Origin: Heterorhizobium halophytocola
Lineage (GTDB): Bacteria; Pseudomonadota; Alphaproteobacteria; Rhizobiales; Rhizobiaceae
Assembly: GCF_017873095.1 (NCBI RefSeq)
Contig: NZ_JAGGJU010000004.1
Coordinates: 248,001-312,000, forward strand
Direction: 5' to 3'
DNA length: 64,000 nucleotides
Part shown: one piece after another, positions 39,623-56,293 of the stretch
How positions within the stretch are numbered: position 1 is the first letter of the stretch
How the letters are laid out: each line of letters starts with the position of its first letter
The notes under the pieces: model-generated
Seen by the model: the letters and a program-made list of their open reading frames with translations, nothing else
What the model was told of the DNA's origin: nothing
Databases searched by the model: none
Program-made: the position numbers and the translations under genes

Positions 39623-40672
39623 ATGACGGATGTGACAGCCACCCCGCCGGAGGCACGCCGAACCGGCAGTCATTCCTTTACCAAGCGCTTTTTGCGATGG
39701 CTTTCGCCACTGTCCGACCTCGCCGCGCCCTTGCCGATATGCGCGATGGCTTATGTCTCAGTTGCATTTCTTGCCTATCACGAGACCTTCACCGGCCTAC
39801 TTGCAATCTACATCAGCAAGTTCGCGATTGCGCTACCGCTGTGTATCCTGATCATTCTGGCGGTTTTGGCCGTCACGGCCCTGACACCATCGCCGATCAA
39901 GTTCATGATCGGGATTGGTCGTGAACGCGCACCTCGGCTGACAGCGACGGTCGTGCTCACCATTCTGGTCATCACCGCGTTCACCACATTGAAATCCAAT
40001 ATACCCAATCTTGTGCCATTCTATGCCGACCCCTGGATCGCGCGGGCCGGCCTTTGGCTGCACGGAAACCAGCCATGGAAGATCGCACATCGCCTGCCGG
40101 ATATAACCGGCCTGCTGATCGACATCGTCTATTCACGGGTGTGGTTCGGACTGGTGCTGGGTACACTGATGGTCGCCGCGGTAATCGAGCCGTCGAAACG
40201 ATTTCGTCGCCTCTGTAGCGCCTTCCTTGCCACCCTGATTATCAACGGCACCATTCTTGCGATCGCCTTGTCGTCGGTCGGTCCAATTTTCTATCATGAC
40301 TTCTATTCAGGACAGGAGTTCAACGGCCTCAACGCGGCGATTGCCAGCAACCCGTATATCAACGATGTCCCGCTATATGCCGACTACCTGCTGGAAAGCT
40401 ACCGAAGCGGCATGGCGCTTCTGGGCTCCGGCATATCGGCAATGCCGAGTGTTCATGTCTCGCTGGCAGTATTGACGGCTTGGTATCTGACAAGTTTCGG
40501 TCCCGTTCGAGGCACAATCGGCTGGCTCCTGGCGGCCCTCATTCTGCTCGGCTCGGTCTATACCGGCTGGCACTACGCGCTGGACGGATATCTGGCGATC
40601 CTGTCCACCAGCCTGATTTGGCTGGCCGTCAGCAAATTCTATCGGCTTCCGCTCGGCCGGGCTACTCCTTAG
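39623..40672 (+). CDS. PAP2-superfamily membrane phosphatase/transferase
   Basis: The 349-residue membrane protein has about six helices. The PAP2 active-site motifs are SAMPSVHVSLAVL and YTGWHYALDGYLA, with the two catalytic His and the Asp. The arrangement is closer to the inositolphosphotransferase (Aur1/Ipt1-like) type of PAP2 domain than to small PgpB proteins. The substrate is likely a lipid or isoprenoid phosphate. Its stop codon overlaps the stop of the convergent cysG by four bases (TTAG). Confidence 0.85.
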   Translation: MTDVTATPPEARRTGSHSFTKRFLRWLSPLSDLAAPLPICAMAYVSVAFLAYHETFTGLLAIYISKFAIALPLCILIILAVLAVTALTPSPIKFMIGIGRERAPRLTATVVLTILVITAFTTLKSNIPNLVPFYADPWIARAGLWLHGNQPWKIAHRLPDITGLLIDIVYSRVWFGLVLGTLMVAAVIEPSKRFRRLCSAFLATLIINGTILAIALSSVGPIFYHDFYSGQEFNGLNAAIASNPYINDVPLYADYLLESYRSGMALLGSGISAMPSVHVSLAVLTAWYLTSFGPVRGTIGWLLAALILLGSVYTGWHYALDGYLAILSTSLIWLAVSKFYRLPLGRATP

Positions 40673-42675
40673 ATCGCGACCGAAAACGCGTCACCCGACA
40701 GGTGGACCACCCCCTGAGACGACGCCTTCAAAAACGCATTTCCGACGCCGATCAGGATCGGTTCGTCGACGCCGATTGCGGCAACGGCGTCGCTCAGGTC
40801 CAAAAGCGGTCCGCTCCAGCGGCGTTCGTTGTCGCGGGAGACGGAGGTCATGATCGCGACGGGTGTGGTCGTCGGCATGCCGGCGGCGATCAGGGCTGCC
40901 TGGATTTTCGGCGCGGTGCGGCCGCCCATGTAGAAGACGGTGGTGACGGCCGGATCGGACAGCCCGTTCCAGTCGATAGTATCAGGCAGGTCGCCATGCC
41001 GCGAATGGCCGGTGACGAAGCGCACCGACTGCGCATGGTCGCGGTGGGTGAGCGAGATGCCGAGCCGCGCGGCCATGGCCGAGGCCGAGGTGATGCCGGG
41101 CACGACATCGACCGGAATACCTTCCGCCTCGAGACGCGCGATCTCCTCGCCGGCGCGTCCGAAGATCATCGGATCGCCGGATTTCAGCCGCACGACACGC
41201 TTGCCGGCTTTGGCAAAACCTACCATTATCGCGTTGATGTCTTCCTGGCGGCAGCTCGTGCGACCGCCGCGCTTGCCGACCAGCATGCGCTTGGCCTCGC
41301 GCCGCGCCAGTTCCAGCACCTCGGCCGAGACGAGATCGTCGAACAGGATGACGTCTGCCGCCTGCAGCGCACGCACGGCCTTCAGCGTCAGCAGTTCCGC
41401 GTCCCCGGGGCCCGCCCCGACCAGTGTGACGCGACCGGTCCGCGCAGCAGCCGAGATCCGGCCGGCATCGGCCAGCAGCCGCTCCGCCGCGTCTTCCCCG
41501 GGTTCCCGGTTTCCGGCAAACGTATGATCGACAAAGCGCTCCCAGAAATTGCGGCGCTCGCTGCCGGGCGCCAGCAGGGCGTTCACCCGGTCGCGCAGCG
41601 CATGGGCAAGTTCGGCCCAGCCTTTCAGTGCCGGCGGCAGCAGCGTCTCGATCCGGCGGCGGATGGCCTGGCCGAGGATCGGTGCCGCGCCATCGGTCGA
41701 GATCGACACGACCACCGGCGAGCGATTGACGATCGAACCGAACTGGAACTGGCAGAAAGCCGGCTTGTCGATGACATTGACCGGCACGCCGGCTTCGACC
41801 GCGGCGTCGTGAAACGCCAGCGCTTCCAGGTCGGTCTCGCAGTCTGCCAGCGCCAGGGATGCGCCGGCGAAGCTTGCGGGAGACCAGGGCGCGTCGTGGT
41901 GATGGAGGGTGCCGCGTCTGGCCGTGGTGGATTCATGCCGCTGTCCTTGCGTGAGGACACCCTCCGCTGCCCTGCCGGGCATCTCTCCCTCAGGCAGGGA
42001 GATCGGCTGGCGGCCGGCCGATCGGTCGACGGCCGGCGCAGCAAGGTTGGGCTGAACCTTCGTTGACTGCGCCTTAGCGGCAGATCGGCCGAGATCGTGT
42101 GCCCTCTCCGGTGGATCATTGATTGCGAGCAAACGTGATGCAGTCGCCCCTATGGCTTTGCTTTCCAGCCTGCCCCGGAGCCCTGCAGACGCCACCTCAT
42201 CCTCAACGCCGACGATAGCACGAGCGGCAGCGGCGGGGTCGATCTCCCCCCTGGAGGGGGAGATGTCCGGCAGGACAGAGGGGGGTAAGCTGCCGCCAGC
42301 ATCGCCTTTGCCCTCGATCTCCATGCCGAGAGAAGCAAGAGGTTCTATGTGCCTTGGTTCACCTTCAACAACTTCGACCCGCGGAGAGGCCCGCACGGCG
42401 AGAGGTGAATCCGCGCCATGCCGCTCAGTGATCAGCGTGCGGAATGTCTCGCCGAGTTCTGCCGCAGGGCACCAGACATGGACATCGGCACCGCAGGCCA
42501 TCAGCAGTTCGGCCTTCCAGGCGGCGCCCTCGGTTCCGCCGGCAAGCAGAACGGGCTTTCCTTCCAGCGACCAGAACACCGGCAGCTTGGCGAGCGGGGC
42601 CATGCGCTCCAGCGCCCGACGGTCGGATCTGCCGGGGCGCGTGGCTTCATTCGGCTGCGAGTGGATGGCAGGCAT
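40669..42675 (-). CDS. cysG: Siroheme synthase with large in-frame repeat insertion
   Basis: This fused enzyme makes siroheme for nitrite reductase. The C-terminal uroporphyrinogen-III methyltransferase part looks complete (GRVTLVGAGPGDAELLTLKA, VVRLKSGDPMIFGRAGEE). The N-terminal precorrin-2 dehydrogenase/ferrochelatase part (LPVFWSLEGKPVLLAGGTEG ... VPVNVIDKPAFCQFQFGSIV) is split by about 160 extra residues (about 90-255) that come from mosaic repeats. The reading frame stays open throughout, giving 668 residues against about 480 expected. The start at 42675 has an AGGGGG site and overlaps nasA by 29 bp; an ATG at 42603 is an alternative. Whether the dehydrogenase part still works is unknown. 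Confidence 0.88.
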   Translation of the reverse strand: MPAIHSQPNEATRPGRSDRRALERMAPLAKLPVFWSLEGKPVLLAGGTEGAAWKAELLMACGADVHVWCPAAELGETFRTLITERHGADSPLAVRASPRVEVVEGEPRHIEPLASLGMEIEGKGDAGGSLPPSVLPDISPSRGEIDPAAAARAIVGVEDEVASAGLRGRLESKAIGATASRLLAINDPPERAHDLGRSAAKAQSTKVQPNLAAPAVDRSAGRQPISLPEGEMPGRAAEGVLTQGQRHESTTARRGTLHHHDAPWSPASFAGASLALADCETDLEALAFHDAAVEAGVPVNVIDKPAFCQFQFGSIVNRSPVVVSISTDGAAPILGQAIRRRIETLLPPALKGWAELAHALRDRVNALLAPGSERRNFWERFVDHTFAGNREPGEDAAERLLADAGRISAAARTGRVTLVGAGPGDAELLTLKAVRALQAADVILFDDLVSAEVLELARREAKRMLVGKRGGRTSCRQEDINAIMVGFAKAGKRVVRLKSGDPMIFGRAGEEIARLEAEGIPVDVVPGITSASAMAARLGISLTHRDHAQSVRFVTGHSRHGDLPDTIDWNGLSDPAVTTVFYMGGRTAPKIQAALIAAGMPTTTPVAIMTSVSRDNERRWSGPLLDLSDAVAAIGVDEPILIGVGNAFLKASSQGVVHLSGDAFSVAI
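41956..42004 (-). repeat. RIME-like palindromic repeat, copy B, inside cysG
   Basis: Read on the minus strand this unit begins with GATCTCCC, contains GAGAGATGCCCGGCAGGGCA and ends with GGAGGGTGTC. It folds into two small hairpins, the second being GCCC-GGCA-GGGC. It is an inverted copy of the unit at 42241-42287. Such units, known as rhizobial intergenic mosaic elements, normally sit between genes. Confidence 0.7.
42241..42287 (+). repeat. RIME-like palindromic repeat, copy A, inside cysG
   Basis: The unit has a first hairpin with 9-bp arms ATCTCCCCC and GGGGGAGAT, a second hairpin GTCC-GGCA-GGAC, and ends in GAGGGGGGTA. Compared with copy B the second stem differs at both arms in a compensating way. 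Together with copy B it bounds a 236-bp segment. Confidence 0.75.
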
Positions 42676-45301
42676 GGATGATCCCCCTGATTTCGGCGCG
42701 GCAGGAGCCGCAATTGGTGCCGGCCGAGAGCTTTTGCCCGACGGCCTCGACGGTGTGGCAGCCGGCAGAGACGGCGGCCGTAATCTGGTTGATGCCGACG
42801 GAAAAGCACGAGCAGACGGTGGCCCCCGGATCGGGCCGCCCTGCCCCCGGCCGTCCGGCAGTGACGCTGTAGCGGGTGCGGGCGTCGGCATGCTCCTGCA
42901 ACAACTGCGTCACCGCCCAGCTGCGCGAGACGGCAACCGGTTGCCGGGCGATGAACAGCGCCAGCAGCAGGCGTGACCCGGCGAAGAAGGCGAGACGCAG
43001 ATCCCCGGTCATGGCATCGGCATAGCCGATGCTCTCGGCTCCGACCGGCAGGTCGAACCGGGTCCGGCACCAGTCCTCCCAGTCGCCCGGCCGCGTGTCG
43101 AAGGCGAGTTCCAGGCGCCAGCCGCCGGTGGCCCGCGCAATCGCCCAATAGGATATGTCGAGAGCCTTCGGGCCTTGCGCCGAGACGATGAAGCCATACG
43201 CATCCGCCGGATGACGGCTGGCGCGCACGGCCACATGCTTGGACGCCGGCTGGCCGGAATGCGGGTCGGTGACCGGCGCCACCAGCGCATCGATGCGGCC
43301 GGCATTGGAGAACTCGCCCGTCCAGTGCATCGGTGCAAACAGCGATCCGCGCTGCTGGCGGTTTGTCACCAGCGCGCGCAGCACCGCTCTACCCCAGGGG
43401 CTTTCCAGCGCCACGAGATCGGCGTCGCGGATCTCCAGCTTGGCGGCATCGTCCGGATGGATCTCGACAAAGGGTTCGGCCATATGCGCCGACAGCCGGG
43501 CGCTCTTGCCGGTGCGCGTCATCGTGTGCCACTGGTCGCGAATGCGTCCGGTGTTGAGGATCAGCGGATAATCGCTGCTGGTGCGTGCGGGCACGGGGGC
43601 ACTGACCGGCACCAGCCGTGCCTTTCCGTCGGCATGATAAAAGCCGCCATTGGCAAAGAAACGGCTTTCCGTCTGCGGCGTGCCTTCGCGCTGCGGCCAC
43701 TGAAATGGGCCGAGCGCGTCATAGGTCGCCGCGTCTATCGTGGCATGGGCGCCGATGTCGAAATCGCGGGTGCCGTCGTTCTCGAAGGCGGAGAGCGCCG
43801 CATGTTCGGCGAAGATCTCAGCCGGCGCGGTGAAGTCGAAGCCGTCGAAGCCCATCCGCCGACCGATCTGGGCCAGCTGCCACCAGTCGGGGCGTGCCGC
43901 GCCCGGTGTCGCGATGAAGGGGCGCTGGCGCGAAATGCGCCGTTCGGAATTGGTCACCGTGCCGCTCTTTTCGCCCCAGCCGGTGGCCGGCAGCAGCACG
44001 TCCGCCAGTCTTGCCGTGTCGGTATCGGCCTGGATGTCGGAGACGACGACGAAGGGACAGGCCTCGATCGCCGCCCGCACCCTGTCGGCATCGGGCATCG
44101 ACACCACCGGATTGGTGGACATGATCCACAGCGCCTTGATCCGGCCATCGGCGACGGCATCGAACATGTCGACCGCCTTCAGCCCGGGCTTGCTGGCCAC
44201 GGTCGCAGATCCCCAGAAGCGCTGGACCCGGTCACGGTCTTCGGCGCTTTCCAGCGCCATATGCGCCGCCAGCATGTTGGCCAGACCACCGACCTCGCGT
44301 CCGCCCATGGCGTTCGGCTGGCCGGTCAGTGAAAACGGACCCATGCCGGGACGACCGATGCGGCCCGTTGCCAGATGGCAGTTGAGGATGGCATTGACCT
44401 TGTCGGTGCCGATCGACGACTGGTTGACGCCCTGGCTGTAGCAGGTGACGACCTTCTGGGTGGCGGCGAAGAGATCATAGAAGGCAGCAATCTCGGGGCG
44501 GCGCAGGCCGGTCGCGTTCGCAACGCCATCGGGAGACAGGCCACGGGCCGCCTCCAGGGCCTGCGGGAACCCGCTCGTGTGGTTTGCCACATATTCGCAG
44601 TGAACCGCGCCGACATCGGCGAGATGCGCCAGCAATCCATTGAACAGTGCCAGATCGCCATCGGGACGCAGCGCCAGATGCAGGTCGGCGATATCGCAGG
44701 TCGCGGTCCGGCGCGGATCGATGACGACGACCTTCATCTCGGGCCGCCTTTCCTTTGCCGCGACGATCCGCTGGTAGATCACCGGATGGCACCAGGCGAG
44801 ATTGGAACCGGTCAGGATCACCAGATCCGCCAGCTCGAGATCCTCGTAGGTGCCGGGCACGGTGTCGGCACCGAAGGCGCGGCGATGACCGGCCACCGAC
44901 GACGACATGCAGAGCCTGGAATTGGTATCGATATTGGCCGAGCCGATGAAGCCCTTCATCAGCTTGTTGGCGACGTAGTAGTCTTCGGTCAGCAACTGGC
45001 CGGAAACATAGAAGGCGACAGCGTCTGGACCATGGGTGGCGATGGTCTCGGAAAATCTCGCGGCAACGAGATCGAGCGCCTCGTCCCAATCCGTGGACCG
45101 ATCGCCGATCTGCGGATGAAGCGCCCTGCCCTCCAGGCCCAGCGTCTCGGCGAGCGCCGACCCTTTGGAGCAGAGGCGTCCGAAATTGGCCGGATGGTCG
45201 AGATCGCCCTTGACGCTGACGGCACCGTCCTCCGCCACCGTCGCAATCACCCCGCAGCCGACGCCGCAATAGGGACAGGTGGTCCTGGTTTCAGTGGGCA
45301 T
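42647..45301 (-). CDS. nasA: Assimilatory nitrate reductase catalytic subunit
   Basis: This cytoplasmic molybdopterin enzyme reduces nitrate to nitrite. The 884-residue product has the N-terminal 4Fe-4S motif TTCPYCGVGCGVIA (C9, C12, C16), molybdopterin oxidoreductase domains (SNLAWCHPVIYQR, VNQSSIGTDKVNAI, GRIGRPGMGPFSLTGQPNAM) and a molydopterin-dinucleotide binding domain. A C-terminal BFD-like 2Fe-2S domain follows (VCSCFSVGINQITAAV, GTNCGSCRAEI). This is the usual NasA/NarB layout for NADH- or ferredoxin-linked assimilation. A GGGGGAGG ribosome site fixes the start. It overlaps cysG downstream and is separated from nirD by the oppositely oriented hicAB genes. Confidence 0.96.
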   Translation of the reverse strand: MPTETRTTCPYCGVGCGVIATVAEDGAVSVKGDLDHPANFGRLCSKGSALAETLGLEGRALHPQIGDRSTDWDEALDLVAARFSETIATHGPDAVAFYVSGQLLTEDYYVANKLMKGFIGSANIDTNSRLCMSSSVAGHRRAFGADTVPGTYEDLELADLVILTGSNLAWCHPVIYQRIVAAKERRPEMKVVVIDPRRTATCDIADLHLALRPDGDLALFNGLLAHLADVGAVHCEYVANHTSGFPQALEAARGLSPDGVANATGLRRPEIAAFYDLFAATQKVVTCYSQGVNQSSIGTDKVNAILNCHLATGRIGRPGMGPFSLTGQPNAMGGREVGGLANMLAAHMALESAEDRDRVQRFWGSATVASKPGLKAVDMFDAVADGRIKALWIMSTNPVVSMPDADRVRAAIEACPFVVVSDIQADTDTARLADVLLPATGWGEKSGTVTNSERRISRQRPFIATPGAARPDWWQLAQIGRRMGFDGFDFTAPAEIFAEHAALSAFENDGTRDFDIGAHATIDAATYDALGPFQWPQREGTPQTESRFFANGGFYHADGKARLVPVSAPVPARTSSDYPLILNTGRIRDQWHTMTRTGKSARLSAHMAEPFVEIHPDDAAKLEIRDADLVALESPWGRAVLRALVTNRQQRGSLFAPMHWTGEFSNAGRIDALVAPVTDPHSGQPASKHVAVRASRHPADAYGFIVSAQGPKALDISYWAIARATGGWRLELAFDTRPGDWEDWCRTRFDLPVGAESIGYADAMTGDLRLAFFAGSRLLLALFIARQPVAVSRSWAVTQLLQEHADARTRYSVTAGRPGAGRPDPGATVCSCFSVGINQITAAVSAGCHTVEAVGQKLSAGTNCGSCRAEIRGIIHACHPLAAE

Positions 45302-45399
45302 GGAAGAGCCTCCCCCATGTTCGCGCGCTGCGACGTTGTTGAATGGCCAAACAGAAATGTGTATATAAATGCGCACCGATACTGCGGAGCGACGGGTAC

Positions 45400-51923: not shown

Positions 51924-53303
51924 TCAACCGCCGACGATCTGCGAGCCGTTGATCTTCTCGGTACCCTTCAGGCCGATCGACAGGCTGTCGATGTAGGCAT
52001 TTGGCGTCTTGCCGTCATAGGAAATGCCGTCGATGAAATCGGCAGTCGCCGGCTTGTAGCCGTCGGTGTCGAAGGGGAAATCTTCCTTGCTGGCATTGCC
52101 TTCGTCGATCAGCATCTGGGCTGCCTTCATGTAGATGTCCGGCTTGTAGACCGACTTGGCGGTCGCGTCGTACCAGGCATCGTCGTGGCTTTCCGGGATC
52201 TGGCCCCAGCGGCGCATCTGGGTCAGGTACCAGACGGCATCGGAATAGAAGGGATAGGTCGCGTTGTAGCGGAAGAAGACGTTGAAATCGGGCACGTCGC
52301 GCTTGTCACCCTTTTCGTATTCGAAGGTGCCGGTCATCGAATTGGCGATCACTTCTGCGTCCGCCCCGACATATTCGGACTTGGACAGGATCTTCACCGC
52401 TTCGGCGCGATTGGCATTGTTGTTCTCGTCCAGCCACTCGGCGGCGCGGATCAGCGCCTTGGTCAGCGCCAGCGTCGTGTTCGGATATTTCTCGGTGAAC
52501 TCCTCGGTCAGGCCGAAGACCTTTTCCGGATTGTTCTTCCAGATCTCGTAGTCTGTGATGACGGGAACGCCGATGCCCTTGAACACGGCCGCCTGGTTCC
52601 ACGGCTCGCCGACGCAATAGCCTTCGATGGTTCCGGCCTCGAGCGTGGCCGGCATCTGCGGCGGCGGGGTGACGGAGAGCAGCGCGTCGGCCTTGATCTG
52701 GCCGGAGACGTCGCTTGGCGAATAATAGCCCGGATTGATGCCACCGGAGGCGAGCCAGTAGCGCAGCTCGTAATTATGGGTGGAGACCGGAAAGACCATG
52801 CCCATGTTGAACGGCTTGCCACTGGCCTTGTAGCTGTCGATCACCGGCTTCAGCGCGTCGGCCTTGATCGGATGCTGCGGCTTGCCGTCGGCACCGACGG
52901 GCACGTTCTTCTTCATCGCCTCCCAGACCGAATTGGAAACGGTGATGCCATTGCCGTTGAGATCCATCGAGAACGGCGTGACGATGTGGGCCTTGGTGCC
53001 GAAGCCGATGGTGGCGGCCAGCGGCTGGCCGGCCAGCATGTGGGCGCCGTCGAGTTCGCCGGTGATCACCCGGTCGAGCAGCACCTTCCAGTTGGCCTGC
53101 GGCTCCAGCGTGACATAGAGGCCCTCGTCCTCGAAGAAGCCCTTTTCCTTGGCAATGGCGAGCGGCGCCATGTCGGTGAGCTTGATGAAGCCGAATTTCA
53201 GCTCGTCCTTCTCGACATCGAGCATCTCGGCATGGGCGGCGAGCGCGCTCGAACCGAGCAGCACGGCCATCAACATCGAACGGCGTAAGAAAGTGGCGGT
53301 CAT
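51924..53303 (-). CDS. nrtA: Nitrate ABC transporter substrate-binding protein
   Basis: The 459-residue product has a signal peptide ([20 protein letters not shown]) and the NrtA/CmpA-type binding domain. Typical parts are [53 protein letters not shown] and [11 protein letters not shown]. It captures nitrate (possibly nitrite) in the periplasm. An AGGGAA site precedes the ATG. It is the first structural gene after the regulated leader at 53304-53493. Confidence 0.95.
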
Positions 53304-53493
53304 CGTCAGTTCCCTGTTTTCCCGAACGGCCGGTTCACCGGCCGAATTGCGATTGAAAATGGGACGCTCAAAAACAAAAAAAGCCGCCAAACCCTGAGAC
53401 CCAATTGCACATACGGCACTTGGTACGGGTTTGGCGGCTTCGCCTTGAGCGTCCTTCATTGGACGCATTTATGGTCAGTCCCCTCTGGACTTG
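53304..53493 (-). promoter_or_regulatory. NasT-responsive (ANTAR) leader of the nrt-nir-nas operon
   Basis: Read on the minus strand the leader starts with two hairpins: HP1 at 53491-53477 (AGTCC/GGACT, 5-nt loop AGAGG) and HP2 at 53466-53449 (GCGTCC/GGACGC, 6-nt loop AATGAA). Both loops have A at position 1 and G at position 4, the hallmark of ANTAR-protein targets. An intrinsic terminator follows (53440-53376), then about 70 nt to the nrtA start. With NasS and NasT encoded just upstream, this fits nitrate-controlled antitermination. HP1 has a 5-nt loop rather than the usual six. Confidence 0.8.
53376..53440 (-). terminator. Leader terminator (attenuator) before nrtA
   Basis: A 14-bp perfect stem has AAGCCGCCAAACCC (53440-53427) as 5' arm and GGGTTTGGCGGCTT (53394-53381) as 3' arm on the minus strand. 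It is followed directly by a run of T, then G and more T. It lies inside the nrtA leader, between the two ANTAR-type hairpins and the ribosome site. Confidence 0.88.
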
Positions 53494-53503
53494 TGCATTA
53501 GCA

Positions 53504-53520
53504 TGCAGGAATCATGCCAG
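53504..53520 (-). promoter_or_regulatory. Sigma-54 promoter of the nrtA operon
   Basis: On the minus strand CTGGCATGATTCCTGCA matches YTGGCAYG-N4-YTGCA, with exactly ten bases between GG and GC. Transcription would start near 53493, only a few bases before HP1, so the hairpin begins the transcript. This points to RpoN/NtrC control by nitrogen status. I could not identify a full NtrC site upstream. Confidence 0.72.
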
Positions 53521-53648
53521 TTTGCAAGATAAAAAATTAATGCATGATTTTCAGATGGTTGACCGAATGTCGCAGAGCTTCAGGGCAAAAACAGCGTCGA
53601 AAGTGCTGCTCAAAATTTGGGCCGCACCTTGACCTGCATGCAAACATA

Positions 53649-54887
53649 TCACGCAGTTGCGAAACCGGGCATCTGGCTGGCGATGTATTCCTCGAGCCTG
53701 TCGGGATCGAAAATCTTGCCGTCGAAGAAGCCATCGGGGCCGAGCGTCAGGCGACCGGCGGTCGTGCCGACATCCTGCTCGACGGTCAAGGCACCCTCGA
53801 CCTTCAGGTTGGCGGCCGGCATGGCGGCGAAGATCGGCTTCAGCGCCTGGCGGAATATATCCGGCCGGTAGGAATTTCGGGCTATCTCGGCGTTCTCGGC
53901 GCTGTGCCGGCAGTCACCCCAGCGCACCATCTGGCTGTAGAACCACAGCGCATGGCTCTGCCACGGAAAGGTCGCGGCGCGACGGCTGAGCACGAGAAAA
54001 TCCTCGACCGGGACGGTGACGCCCGGCGCCGGATTGATCCGGCCGGTAAGCTCCGGCAGCAGCAGGCGACCCTCGACCCCGAGATGCTGGGGCGCGGCCA
54101 TGATGCCGGCCAGTTCCTCGATGTTCTCAGGATTGCCGCACCATTGCGCGGCGCGGTAGCAGGCACGCAGAAGCGCGTCGAGCAGATCGCGGTTGTCGTC
54201 GGCCCAAGGCTTGGACACACCCAGCACTTTTTCCGGACTGTTGCGCCAGATGCGCGCCTTGACGGCGACGATCCGGCCGATGTCGCGGTCGACGGAAATG
54301 GTGTTCCACGGCTCGCCGACACAGTAGCCGTCGATACGGCCGAGTTCCAGCGCATCCGGCATCAGCGACGGCGGCACGGCAACGATCTCGACATCGCTGT
54401 CGGGCGAGATGCCGCAGGCCGACAGCCAGTAGCGCAGTTCGTAATTGTGCCCGGAATGAAAATGCACGACTGCAAAGCGCAGGGCCGGCCTGCCCTCGGC
54501 ACGGCGCGCCGCGATGGTGGCCTTGAGTGCCCGCCCCGCTCCATGCGGCTCCAGGTCATCGACATGACCATTGGCGAGCATGCCGGCATGCAGATCCTTC
54601 GACACGGTGATCGCATTGCCGCCAAGGTTCAGCGCCATCGGGCAGATCATCGGGGCAGCCATCGGATGCAGGCCGAGATTGGCGGCAATTGGCATCGGAC
54701 CGAGCATATGCGCCGCCTGGAAGTGGCCGACCGCGATGCGGTCGCGGATGCTCGCCCAGGACGTCTCGCGCATCAGATGCAGATCGAGATTCTCGTCGCT
54801 TGCAAACCCCTTTTCGGCCGCTGCAATCAGAATGCAGCTGTCGAAGAGCGGCATGAAGCCTACAGTCATCTCGCGCGCATTCGCCAT
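53649..54887 (-). CDS. nasS: NasS nitrate/nitrite sensor of the NasST system
   Basis: The 412-residue product is related to NrtA ([42 protein letters not shown]) but has no signal peptide, as expected for a cytoplasmic nitrate sensor. In characterised NasS/NasT systems, NasS holds NasT in the absence of nitrate and releases it when nitrate binds. It lies 3 bp downstream of nasT, and its stop is about 155 bp before the promoter of the nrtA operon. Confidence 0.92.
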   Translation of the reverse strand: MANAREMTVGFMPLFDSCILIAAAEKGFASDENLDLHLMRETSWASIRDRIAVGHFQAAHMLGPMPIAANLGLHPMAAPMICPMALNLGGNAITVSKDLHAGMLANGHVDDLEPHGAGRALKATIAARRAEGRPALRFAVVHFHSGHNYELRYWLSACGISPDSDVEIVAVPPSLMPDALELGRIDGYCVGEPWNTISVDRDIGRIVAVKARIWRNSPEKVLGVSKPWADDNRDLLDALLRACYRAAQWCGNPENIEELAGIMAAPQHLGVEGRLLLPELTGRINPAPGVTVPVEDFLVLSRRAATFPWQSHALWFYSQMVRWGDCRHSAENAEIARNSYRPDIFRQALKPIFAAMPAANLKVEGALTVEQDVGTTAGRLTLGPDGFFDGKIFDPDRLEEYIASQMPGFATA

Positions 54888-54890
54888 CCT

Positions 54891-55493
54891 TCAGTCCCCT
54901 AGCAATCCCGCAGCCATGATAAGGCTCTGGGCAATTTCCGCCATTTTCCTGTTCTGCTTCATCGCCGTCGAACGCAACAGCTTGTAGGCCTCGTCTTCGG
55001 AAATACCCTTGGTCCGCATCAAGATGCCCTTGGCCCGATCGACCAGCTTGCGGTTTTCGAGTTCCGTGCGCGCCTCTTCCAGTTCCCGGGCCATGCGGGA
55101 GAAGGCGTTGAAGCGGCTGATTGCCATATCGAGGATCGGCTTGACGCGCTCCTGCCGCAGGCCGTCCACCACATAGGCCGAGACGCCCGCCTCGACGGCG
55201 GCCGAGATCATGCCGTCGTCGGAACGGTCGACGAACATGGCAATGGGCCGCTTGGCCGAGCGGGAGAGCTGGAACATGCTTTCCAGCATGTCACGGTTGG
55301 GATTTTCGAGCGAGATGACGATGACATCGGGTGCCAGCCGCTCGATCTCGCGCGCCACCCCCAACACTTCCCGCGTGATGGTGATCTGGCGATGGCCGGC
55401 CGCCAGCAGCCCCGCCTCGATGACCGAGGCCCGGATCGCGTTTTCATCGATGACCAGGATTGTCAGATCGGGATTGTGCATGGCAGCATTCAT
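54891..55493 (-). CDS. nasT: NasT ANTAR-domain antiterminator
   Basis: The 200-residue product has an N-terminal receiver-like domain (LTILVIDENAIRASVIEAGL) and a C-terminal ANTAR RNA-binding domain (ENRKLVDRAKGILMRTKGIS, EDEAYKLLRSTAMKQNRKMA). At the normal phospho-Asp position it reads VIVISLENP, so the Asp is Ser; the receiver is probably not phosphorylated and NasT is controlled by NasS binding. It should bind the paired hairpins in the nrtA leader and prevent termination. The ATG at 55481 is an alternative start. Confidence 0.93.
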   Translation of the reverse strand: MNAAMHNPDLTILVIDENAIRASVIEAGLLAAGHRQITITREVLGVAREIERLAPDVIVISLENPNRDMLESMFQLSRSAKRPIAMFVDRSDDGMISAAVEAGVSAYVVDGLRQERVKPILDMAISRFNAFSRMARELEEARTELENRKLVDRAKGILMRTKGISEDEAYKLLRSTAMKQNRKMAEIAQSLIMAAGLLGD

Positions 55494-55552: not shown

Positions 55553-56293
55553 TTACTTGATGAGCCCGATGCGCAAGGCCTTGGCCACCGCCTGGGTGCG
55601 GTTGACGGTATCGAGCTTGCGGGTGGCGCGGTTGAGATAGTGATTGATGGTGTGCTCGGAGAGGCCGAGGATCTCGGCAATCTCGACACTGGTCTTGCCG
55701 GCCGCCGTCCAGTTCAGGCAATCGATCTCGCGTTCCGTCAGCATTTCGGTGGCACGATTGTCGAGTTCGCGGATCTCCGCCAGCCGGTTGTAGACATGGG
55801 CTGAAAGATATGACAGCGCCATCATTTCCGGCAGGGAGAACGGCTCACGATCGCCGGAGAATACGACGATGCCGCGATTGTTGCTGGCGTCGTGCACCGG
55901 GAACATCGCCCCCCGCGGCATGCTGAACCGCGCAAACAGATCGCGTCGCACCAGTTGTGCGCCGGCCATTTCGCCATTCTCCGAGACATTGAAATCATAT
56001 TGCAGCGGGATGGTCGAGCTGCGCAGGATGTGAAGCGAAGAACTTTCCGCCAGCATGTGATGCTGGTCGTAATTGTTCAGAAGATCTGCCGGCCAGTTGG
56101 AGATGATCGAATTGCTGGCCAGATCCGGTGACGTCGATGCCGGCATATGACCGACAATAAACGCCCGCATGCCGGACAGCTCGGTCAAGCGCTTCATGAA
56201 CCTGAAGACATCGAACTGCGTCTTGAACTGATGCAACTCGTCTATGAGCGCCCCGACTGCACTCACTAAAGAAAGACTATCAACCGTGGACAT
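55553..56293 (-). CDS. LuxR-type regulator (solo, atypical ligand domain)
   Basis: The 246-residue product has an N-terminal domain related to autoinducer-binding domains and a C-terminal LuxR helix-turn-helix (LTEREIDCLNWTAAGKTSVE, IAEILGLSEHTINHYLNRAT). Several residues that bind acyl-homoserine lactones in TraR/LuxR are not seen (around WPADLLNNYDQHHMLAESSS the Trp and Asp-Pro of the pattern are replaced). No luxI gene is nearby. It lies 59 bp upstream of nasT on the same strand and may be the first gene of a luxR-nasT-nasS unit. Confidence 0.88.
   Translation of the reverse strand: MSTVDSLSLVSAVGALIDELHQFKTQFDVFRFMKRLTELSGMRAFIVGHMPASTSPDLASNSIISNWPADLLNNYDQHHMLAESSSLHILRSSTIPLQYDFNVSENGEMAGAQLVRRDLFARFSMPRGAMFPVHDASNNRGIVVFSGDREPFSLPEMMALSYLSAHVYNRLAEIRELDNRATEMLTEREIDCLNWTAAGKTSVEIAEILGLSEHTINHYLNRATRKLDTVNRTQAVAKALRIGLIK

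Follow-up and report, generated by a model that had tools for sequence, protein, structure and literature searches.

A probable NasT-controlled antitermination leader behind a sigma-54 promoter precedes nrtA in Heterorhizobium halophytocola

The window analysed here is a 64,000-nt stretch of a Heterorhizobium halophytocola contig; all positions refer to it, and all leader features are read on its minus strand. The leader, about 190 nt in length, lies on this strand between nasS and nrtA. The gene nrtA (51924..53303, minus strand, ATG at 53303) is the first of its operon and encodes the substrate-binding protein of a nitrate ABC transporter, which carries a signal peptide as judged by eye. It is followed on the same strand by nrtB (its best family match is ntrB, under the cut-off of that family), nrtCD, nirB and nirD and, further downstream, by two frames, 42647-45376 and 40669-42891, that on the basis of their translations only resemble a molybdenum nitrate reductase and a CysG-like siroheme enzyme, respectively. 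As proposed in the initial annotation, nasS and nasT are located directly upstream of the leader on the same strand. Specifically, nasS (53649..54887, minus strand) encodes an NrtA-like nitrate sensor (PF13379) with no signal peptide evident by eye from the translation, and nasT (54891..55478, minus strand, starting at either 55478 or 55466) encodes an antiterminator with a receiver-like and an ANTAR RNA-binding domain (PF03861, E 9.9e-22). Its matches among solved structures are 1s8n (7.4e-18), EutV 6wsh (2.1e-17), NasR 4akk (1.2e-9) and AmiR 1qo0 (2e-6). The arrangement of an ANTAR regulator and a sensor of this kind next to the putative target is that of a NasS-NasT system. Directly upstream of nasT, at 55553-56293 on the same strand, a LuxR-type regulator with an autoinducer-binding domain is encoded, and a short, perfect inverted repeat (CGGCCGGT/ACCGGCCG) is present at 53327-53344, just upstream of the ribosome-binding region of nrtA. 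In the two further genomes of the host's genus that were searched, nrtA was absent at the cut-off used.

At the head of the leader lies a putative promoter for sigma-54, which is also named NtrA. This sequence, TGGCATGATTCCTGCA (53504..53519, minus strand), carries a GG at 53518-53517 and a GC at 53506-53505, separated by a 10-nt spacer, and would direct a transcription start (+1) near 53493. It agrees with 10 of the 12 consensus letters, with the GG at -24 and the GC at -12. The first structure in the transcript is a stem-loop, P1 (AGTCC-AGAGG-GGACT, 53477..53491, minus strand), which begins at about +3. It is followed by P2 (GCGTCC-AATGAA-GGACGC, 53449..53466, minus strand), an ANTAR-type hairpin with A and G at positions 1 and 4 of its hexaloop (A1 and G4), and by an intrinsic terminator (53381..53440, minus strand) consisting of a 14-bp stem (5′ arm 53440-53427, 3′ arm 53394-53381) followed by a T7-G-T5 tract. 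These four elements had been placed at the same coordinates by the initial annotation. P1 had been presented there as a further ANTAR-type hairpin; its stem is indeed present, but its loop has five bases and not six. The list of hairpins did not include P3 (GGC-GAAGCC-GCC, 53433..53444, minus strand), the putative second hairpin of ANTAR type, with G1 and G4 in its loop. P3 overlaps the 5′ arm of the terminator and would serve as the antiterminator. The leader RNA as a whole folded with a z-score of -5.5, and none of 200 shuffled sequences was as low.

The two arms of the terminator are 100% complementary and enclose an apical region of 32 nt, with the first two T of the tract inside the stem. 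The predicted energy of the plain 14-bp stem is -25.5 kcal/mol and the minimum free energy of the region is -34.6 kcal/mol. A terminator scan restricted to loops of 3-8 nt overlooked this structure with its 32-nt loop. As the 3′ arm of P3 lies within the 5′ arm of the terminator, the two structures compete for one strand, and this was reflected in predicted folds of the growing RNA. In these lowest-energy folds, which do not describe kinetics, P1, P2 and P3 were present until the RNA reached 53388, and at 53381 P3 was replaced by all 14 pairs of the terminator with P2 retained.

For comparison, we collected the regions upstream of nrtA from three sources: 80 named relatives of NrtA, the window, and the rest of the family, where 45 other genomes had a strong NrtA match and 40 of these were used. 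Removal of one locus without upstream sequence and of four duplicates left 116 distinct regions. A terminator whose 5′ arm can alternatively form the hexaloop hairpin P3 was called in 96 of them, whereas 20 yielded no such call. Leaders of the Ciceribacter/Agrobacterium type (L001, L004, L006, L009 and L085) follow the same hexaloop-in-terminator plan with other sequences, an example being P3 GAC-ATCGAC-GTC with the terminator GACGTCGC. We then compared the strands of P3 with the terminator in 90 leaders, six doubtful calls being omitted; as a result of how they were selected, all 90 form three or more P3 pairs, so that the information lies in the variation of these pairs. At the second pair, the letters in the P3 5′ arm, the shared 3′ arm and the opposite terminator arm were G-C-G in 81 leaders, A-U-G in 6, A-U-A in 2 and G-U-G in 1. 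At the third pair they were G-C-G in 59, A-U-A in 10, A-U-G in 8 and G-U-G in 2; the fourth position is paired only in a minority. Thus, when the shared strand changes, both of its partners follow or wobble, which fits two mutually exclusive structures.

The loops of these hairpins identify the probable ANTAR pair. P3 had been selected regardless of its loop letters, and A1 and G4 were present in 86 of the 96 leaders. P2, defined on energy alone as the most favourable hexaloop hairpin immediately preceding P3, was found in 76 leaders, 63 of which carry A1 and G4; shuffled leaders gave about 25 hexaloops of the P2 type, with A1 and G4 in 1.85. Upstream of P2, a hexaloop hairpin at a distance of no more than 35 nt was found in 45 of these 76 leaders, and 17 of the 45 have A1 and G4 (0.3 in shuffles), in a search that extended beyond the transcript and that in the window took promoter sequence for P1. 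Relatives therefore keep A1 and G4 in the loop of P2 but mostly not in that of P1, so that the refuting condition set by the initial annotation speaks against P1 and in favour of P2. Since these letters are conserved in both P2 and P3, we conclude that the working ANTAR pair, as judged from the sequences, is most likely formed by P2 and the overlooked P3. P2 and P3 are separated by 4 nt in the window. This is the commonest linker among 70 leaders (17 of 70), of which 60 have 1-7 nt, but it lies below the 5-12 nt given for the eut leaders of E. faecalis, where linkers of 3 and 14 nt were harmful (available text of PMC3369931). In the same source, Ramesh et al. place the second mini-hairpin of eut, nasF and amiE at the foot of the terminator, on its 5′ side; in the present leader it is P3 that fills this place.

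Additional evidence was obtained by aligning the P2-P3 segments. The alignment comprised 56 of the 63 segments that have a P2 stem of at least 5 bp and a short linker; the 7 omitted were mostly from Rhodobacterales. The initial annotation had suggested that aligned nrtA leaders of relatives be searched for compensatory changes, and such changes were found: both stems together showed 39 double-sided changes, 38 of them in P2, versus a mean of 9.8 in shuffled alignments. Sliding the stem partners against each other abolished the pairing. Paired cells made up 99.6% of the alignment, a figure due partly to the selection of rows for having both stems.

In the initial annotation, P1 and P2 were regarded as the ANTAR pair, and NasT bound to these two hairpins was thought to prevent termination. 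The pentaloop of P1 (AGAGG) does have A at position 1 and G at position 4, its 10-nt distance to P2 is inside the known range, and among the P1 hexaloops with A1 and G4 there are 10 leaders in which all three hairpins carry these letters. However, the P1 loop of most leaders is not of the A1/G4 type; it is GGAGG in L002, and L137 and L142 have only 7-8 nt left, which is no room for P1. Moreover, P3 overlaps the terminator whereas P1 and P2 do not, so that binding of these two hairpins alone would offer no reason for antitermination. We therefore consider a P1-P2 pair very unlikely and retain P2 and P3 as the probable target of NasT.

To describe P1 itself, hairpins were also sought strictly inside the transcript of 56 leaders with a sigma-54 site, taking +1 as 12 nt after the C of the GC. 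In 46 of the 56, the hairpin at the transcript start was better than in the leader's own shuffles. A P1 hairpin was present in 49, and 39 of these begin at +1 to +4. Loops of more than 8 nt were disallowed in this search, and L143, L144, L149 and L150 were thus counted as lacking P1 although larger-looped hairpins can be drawn; L020 was excluded because it was mis-registered. An A1/G4 hexaloop is available in only 11 of the 49 P1 hairpins. P1 is thus a 5′-terminal stem-loop of which the stem is kept and the loop is mostly free and mostly not of the ANTAR type. That it protects the RNA 5′ end is our guess.

The leaders with three A1/G4 hexaloops raise the idea of a relay, in which NasT would be loaded on the emerging P1 and would move from there to P2 and P3, extending the two-step handover of EutV. 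The script counted 10 such leaders, named representatives coming from Rhodobacter, Roseibium, Cohaesibacter, Minwuia and Aquimixticola; one, L094, is doubtful, as the search inside the transcript gives another P1. Both this count and the excess of A1/G4 loops in P1 over shuffles fit the idea, as does the proposal by Walshe et al. (available text of PMC8934654) that the dimer engages the two hexaloops singly, the first before the second. An additional single hexaloop is also mentioned for EutX in the available part of PMC8934654, and our literature search brought no article to notice that deals with a third hexaloop in leaders of the NasT type. Against a general relay stand the scarcity of A1/G4 hexaloops in P1 inside the transcript and the pentaloop of P1 in the window, and we regard it as rather unlikely.

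A peculiarity of the window concerns P3, where loop position 1 is G and not A, as in 5 of the 90 leaders including the window. This G can form a pair with C6; the resulting tetraloop has -5.0 kcal/mol versus -2.8 kcal/mol for the hexaloop, so that this register is predicted to be 2.2 kcal/mol more stable. Since the tetraloop register is favoured in this calculation, NasT may recognise the P3 of the window differently.

The assignment of the promoter relies on comparison in a similar way. Taken by itself, the sigma-54 pattern is not significant, the 64-kb window containing 1 match with no more than one mismatch where 2.85 are expected. A site of this kind is, however, found upstream of P3 in 49 of the 96 leaders of relatives, as compared to a mean of 0.38 in shuffles, and it is this recurrence at the same place, rather than the motif alone, that lifts the sigma-54 site beyond chance. 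In addition, 17 of 20 leaders picked by an RNA model that itself excludes the promoter have such a site. A narrow, strict pattern matched 0 loci, and all counts rest instead on a 12-letter score, by which no sigma-54 site was present in some leaders, for example those of the Rhodobacterales L014, L017, L022 and L049. The proposal of a GG-N10-GC promoter with an RNA start at about 53493 is thus supported. Further upstream, a candidate NtrC site (53571..53587, plus strand) reads CGCAGAGCTTCAGGGCA on the plus strand and has one mismatch to YGCMNNNNTTNNTRGCA, the consensus as printed in the available text of PMC5424462. NtrC-like sites with at most one mismatch precede 7 of 27 sigma-54 leaders, where shuffles predict 0.5. 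Earlier reports predicted NtrC control for nrtABC of alpha- and betaproteobacteria (PMC5343134) and likewise predicted sigma-54 promoters before nasT (PMC12316311), as far as the accessible portions of these papers go.

The switch is furthermore linked to nasT. In the 78 named loci whose upstream sequence extends over 2.6 kb or more, nasT lies within 4 kb upstream in 55 of the 59 leaders with the switch versus 7 of the 19 without it (Fisher p 1.4e-6, uncorrected for kinship); the near-duplicate L063 has the switch yet was counted among the 19, and omitting it changes this proportion to 6 of 18. In 4 of the 59, nasT was not found within 4 kb upstream. NasS is encoded upstream in 54 of the 59.

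On these grounds we consider it highly probable that the leader is controlled by NasT-dependent antitermination under a sigma-54 promoter that is probably activated by NtrC. The same combination of ANTAR antitermination with an RpoN promoter had been put forward in the initial annotation and is supported here by the P2 covariation together with A1 and G4, by the recurrence of the sigma-54 site and by the linkage to nasT. By analogy with related systems, RNA polymerase would start near 53493 and produce P1, P2 and then P3. In the absence of nitrate, NasS would hold NasT and the terminator 3′ arm would invade P3, upon which the 14-bp terminator would form and transcription would stop before nrtA. 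In the presence of nitrate or nitrite, NasS would release NasT, which would bind the hexaloop of P2 and then that of P3. A P3 bound by NasT would not be dismantled, the terminator would not form and the nrt-nir-nas operon would be read. P1 would remain outside this core switch and would in some lineages provide a third hexaloop.

An attenuation mechanism based on a leader peptide or coupled to translation would start at an ATG at 53468, 55 codons upstream of nrtA and in its reading frame. The frame is open from 51924 to 53468 and a purine-rich stretch precedes this ATG. Yet there is no ATG at this place in L002 and L003, although the 3′ half of P1 is common to them and the window, and the candidate was rejected; the covariation of P2 and P3 is moreover explained without translation. 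We hold this mechanism to be extremely improbable, and NasT-dependent antitermination remains the preferred reading.

Just past the T tract, TTGAGCGTCC (53362..53371, minus strand) forms a perfect 10-bp complement to the P2 3′ arm and linker, GGACGCTCAA (53454-53445), so that the complementary pair flanks the terminator. Conceivably, this could reset the switch after readthrough: the P2 3′ arm would pair with 53371-53362, dismantling P2 and freeing NasT. Indeed, once the RNA reaches 53361, the 6 pairs of P2 give way in the predicted fold to the 10 pairs of the extended stem, and L003 and L089 carry 10- and 8-bp stems made of other letters. These two leaders and the window are also the only 3 of 76 that score at least 24, as opposed to 0.15 expected from swaps, and the leaders' own sequences reached 12.2 versus 11.65 for swapped ones, with 1 of 200 swaps as high. 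However, folding of all 76 leaders gave a mean of 5.1 pairs versus 5.9 in shuffled sequences, with 2 of 76 at the 0.05 level. As this reveals no general folding signal, the 10-bp stem is either specific to a lineage or due to chance, and we judge a reset function to be quite improbable. Combining both ideas, the NasT leaders of alphaproteobacteria would be three-station relays of a 5′-end hexaloop, P2 and P3, with a P2-stripping reset past the terminator in some rhizobia. This is a scheme that we find unlikely; if the three-station relay were true, P1 would have decayed to a plain 5′-end stem-loop in many rhizobial leaders, that of the window included.

The joint use of Ntr control and ANTAR-dependent antitermination has precedents, with NasR of Klebsiella and NasT of Paracoccus, Azotobacter and Bradyrhizobium as kin, and the present leader is a well-conserved case of this control with an anatomy slightly unlike the first description. 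Wang et al. reportedly found in 2012 that NasT acts as an antiterminator in the leader of nasAB, the assimilatory nitrate operon of Azotobacter vinelandii which, unlike the present host, is a gammaproteobacterium. In Paracoccus denitrificans, where NasS-NasT control nasABGHC (PMC3795266, PMC5424462), nasTS likewise lie beside the structural genes, hairpins are present in a leader region of some 200 bp, NasT binds the leader RNA and nitrate frees NasT from NasS (PMC3795266); growth on nitrate was lost in a hairpin I mutant (PMC3795266, PMC5424462). In contrast to the window, two hairpins (HI and HII) are named there, the operon starts with the transporter gene nasA and an NtrC site is reported before nasT, and the available text of both papers does not describe a sigma-54 leader promoter or P3. 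The nasF leader of Klebsiella also combines Ntr control of initiation (NtrA, NtrB, NtrC) with nitrate-dependent antitermination, but NasR itself senses nitrate and NasS-NasT are not involved (available text of PMC5424462 and PMC3369931). With the eutP, nasF and amiE antiterminators, as presented in the accessible parts of PMC3369931 and PMC8934654, the leader shares the plan of two hexaloop hairpins, of the A1/G4 type in P2 and putatively also in P3, with the second at the terminator 5′ base; it differs from them by the extra 5′-end hairpin, the 4-nt linker and the G at P3 loop position 1. Bradyrhizobium provides a rhizobial NasS-NasT system with nitrate-responsive leader hairpins at nosR, narK and nirA, but there the targets of NasT include denitrification genes (available text of PMC6759348 and PMC4724949), whereas the P2-P3 model strongly matches the genome of the window at one place. 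The comparison provides an aligned picture, supported by covariation, of the NasT target (P2, P3 and terminator) across alphaproteobacteria including rhizobia; for Sinorhizobium meliloti, the regulation of the nitrate assimilation genes was stated as not known in the available text of a 2019 paper (PMC6616083). For the planning of leader mutants it is relevant that P1, conspicuous as the first hairpin, is surpassed in conservation by other parts.

Finally, a model of the P2-P3 segment, R1, locates the element genome-wide, where Rfam release 15 gave two chance-level matches over 52000-55000 (best E 5.8), none of them in the leader. In the host genome, R1 had one strong match (E 2.4e-6), which is its own training sequence, followed by the next at 0.09; 11 of the 19 weaker matches were checked on both strands as further NasT targets and rejected, none having a terminator. 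Among 297 genomes of the order, R1 detected 59 places in 50 genomes. Twenty of these places were examined, three of which have leaders identical to training rows, and 19 lie by nitrate genes: 8 precede nrtA, 10 are situated less than 1.8 kb ahead of nirB and one follows nasS at a contig end. The weakest of the 20 is without a nitrate-gene neighbour. Two genomes each have two P2-P3 leaders about 4.6 kb apart (L143/L144 and L149/L150), one before nrtA and the other before nirB or the gene preceding nirB, and several more genomes have two R1 matches. At the L082 locus, a 196-aa frame at 1465-2055 encodes a second ANTAR-domain protein of the same genome, scoring 40.1 bits and thus above the Pfam cut-off.
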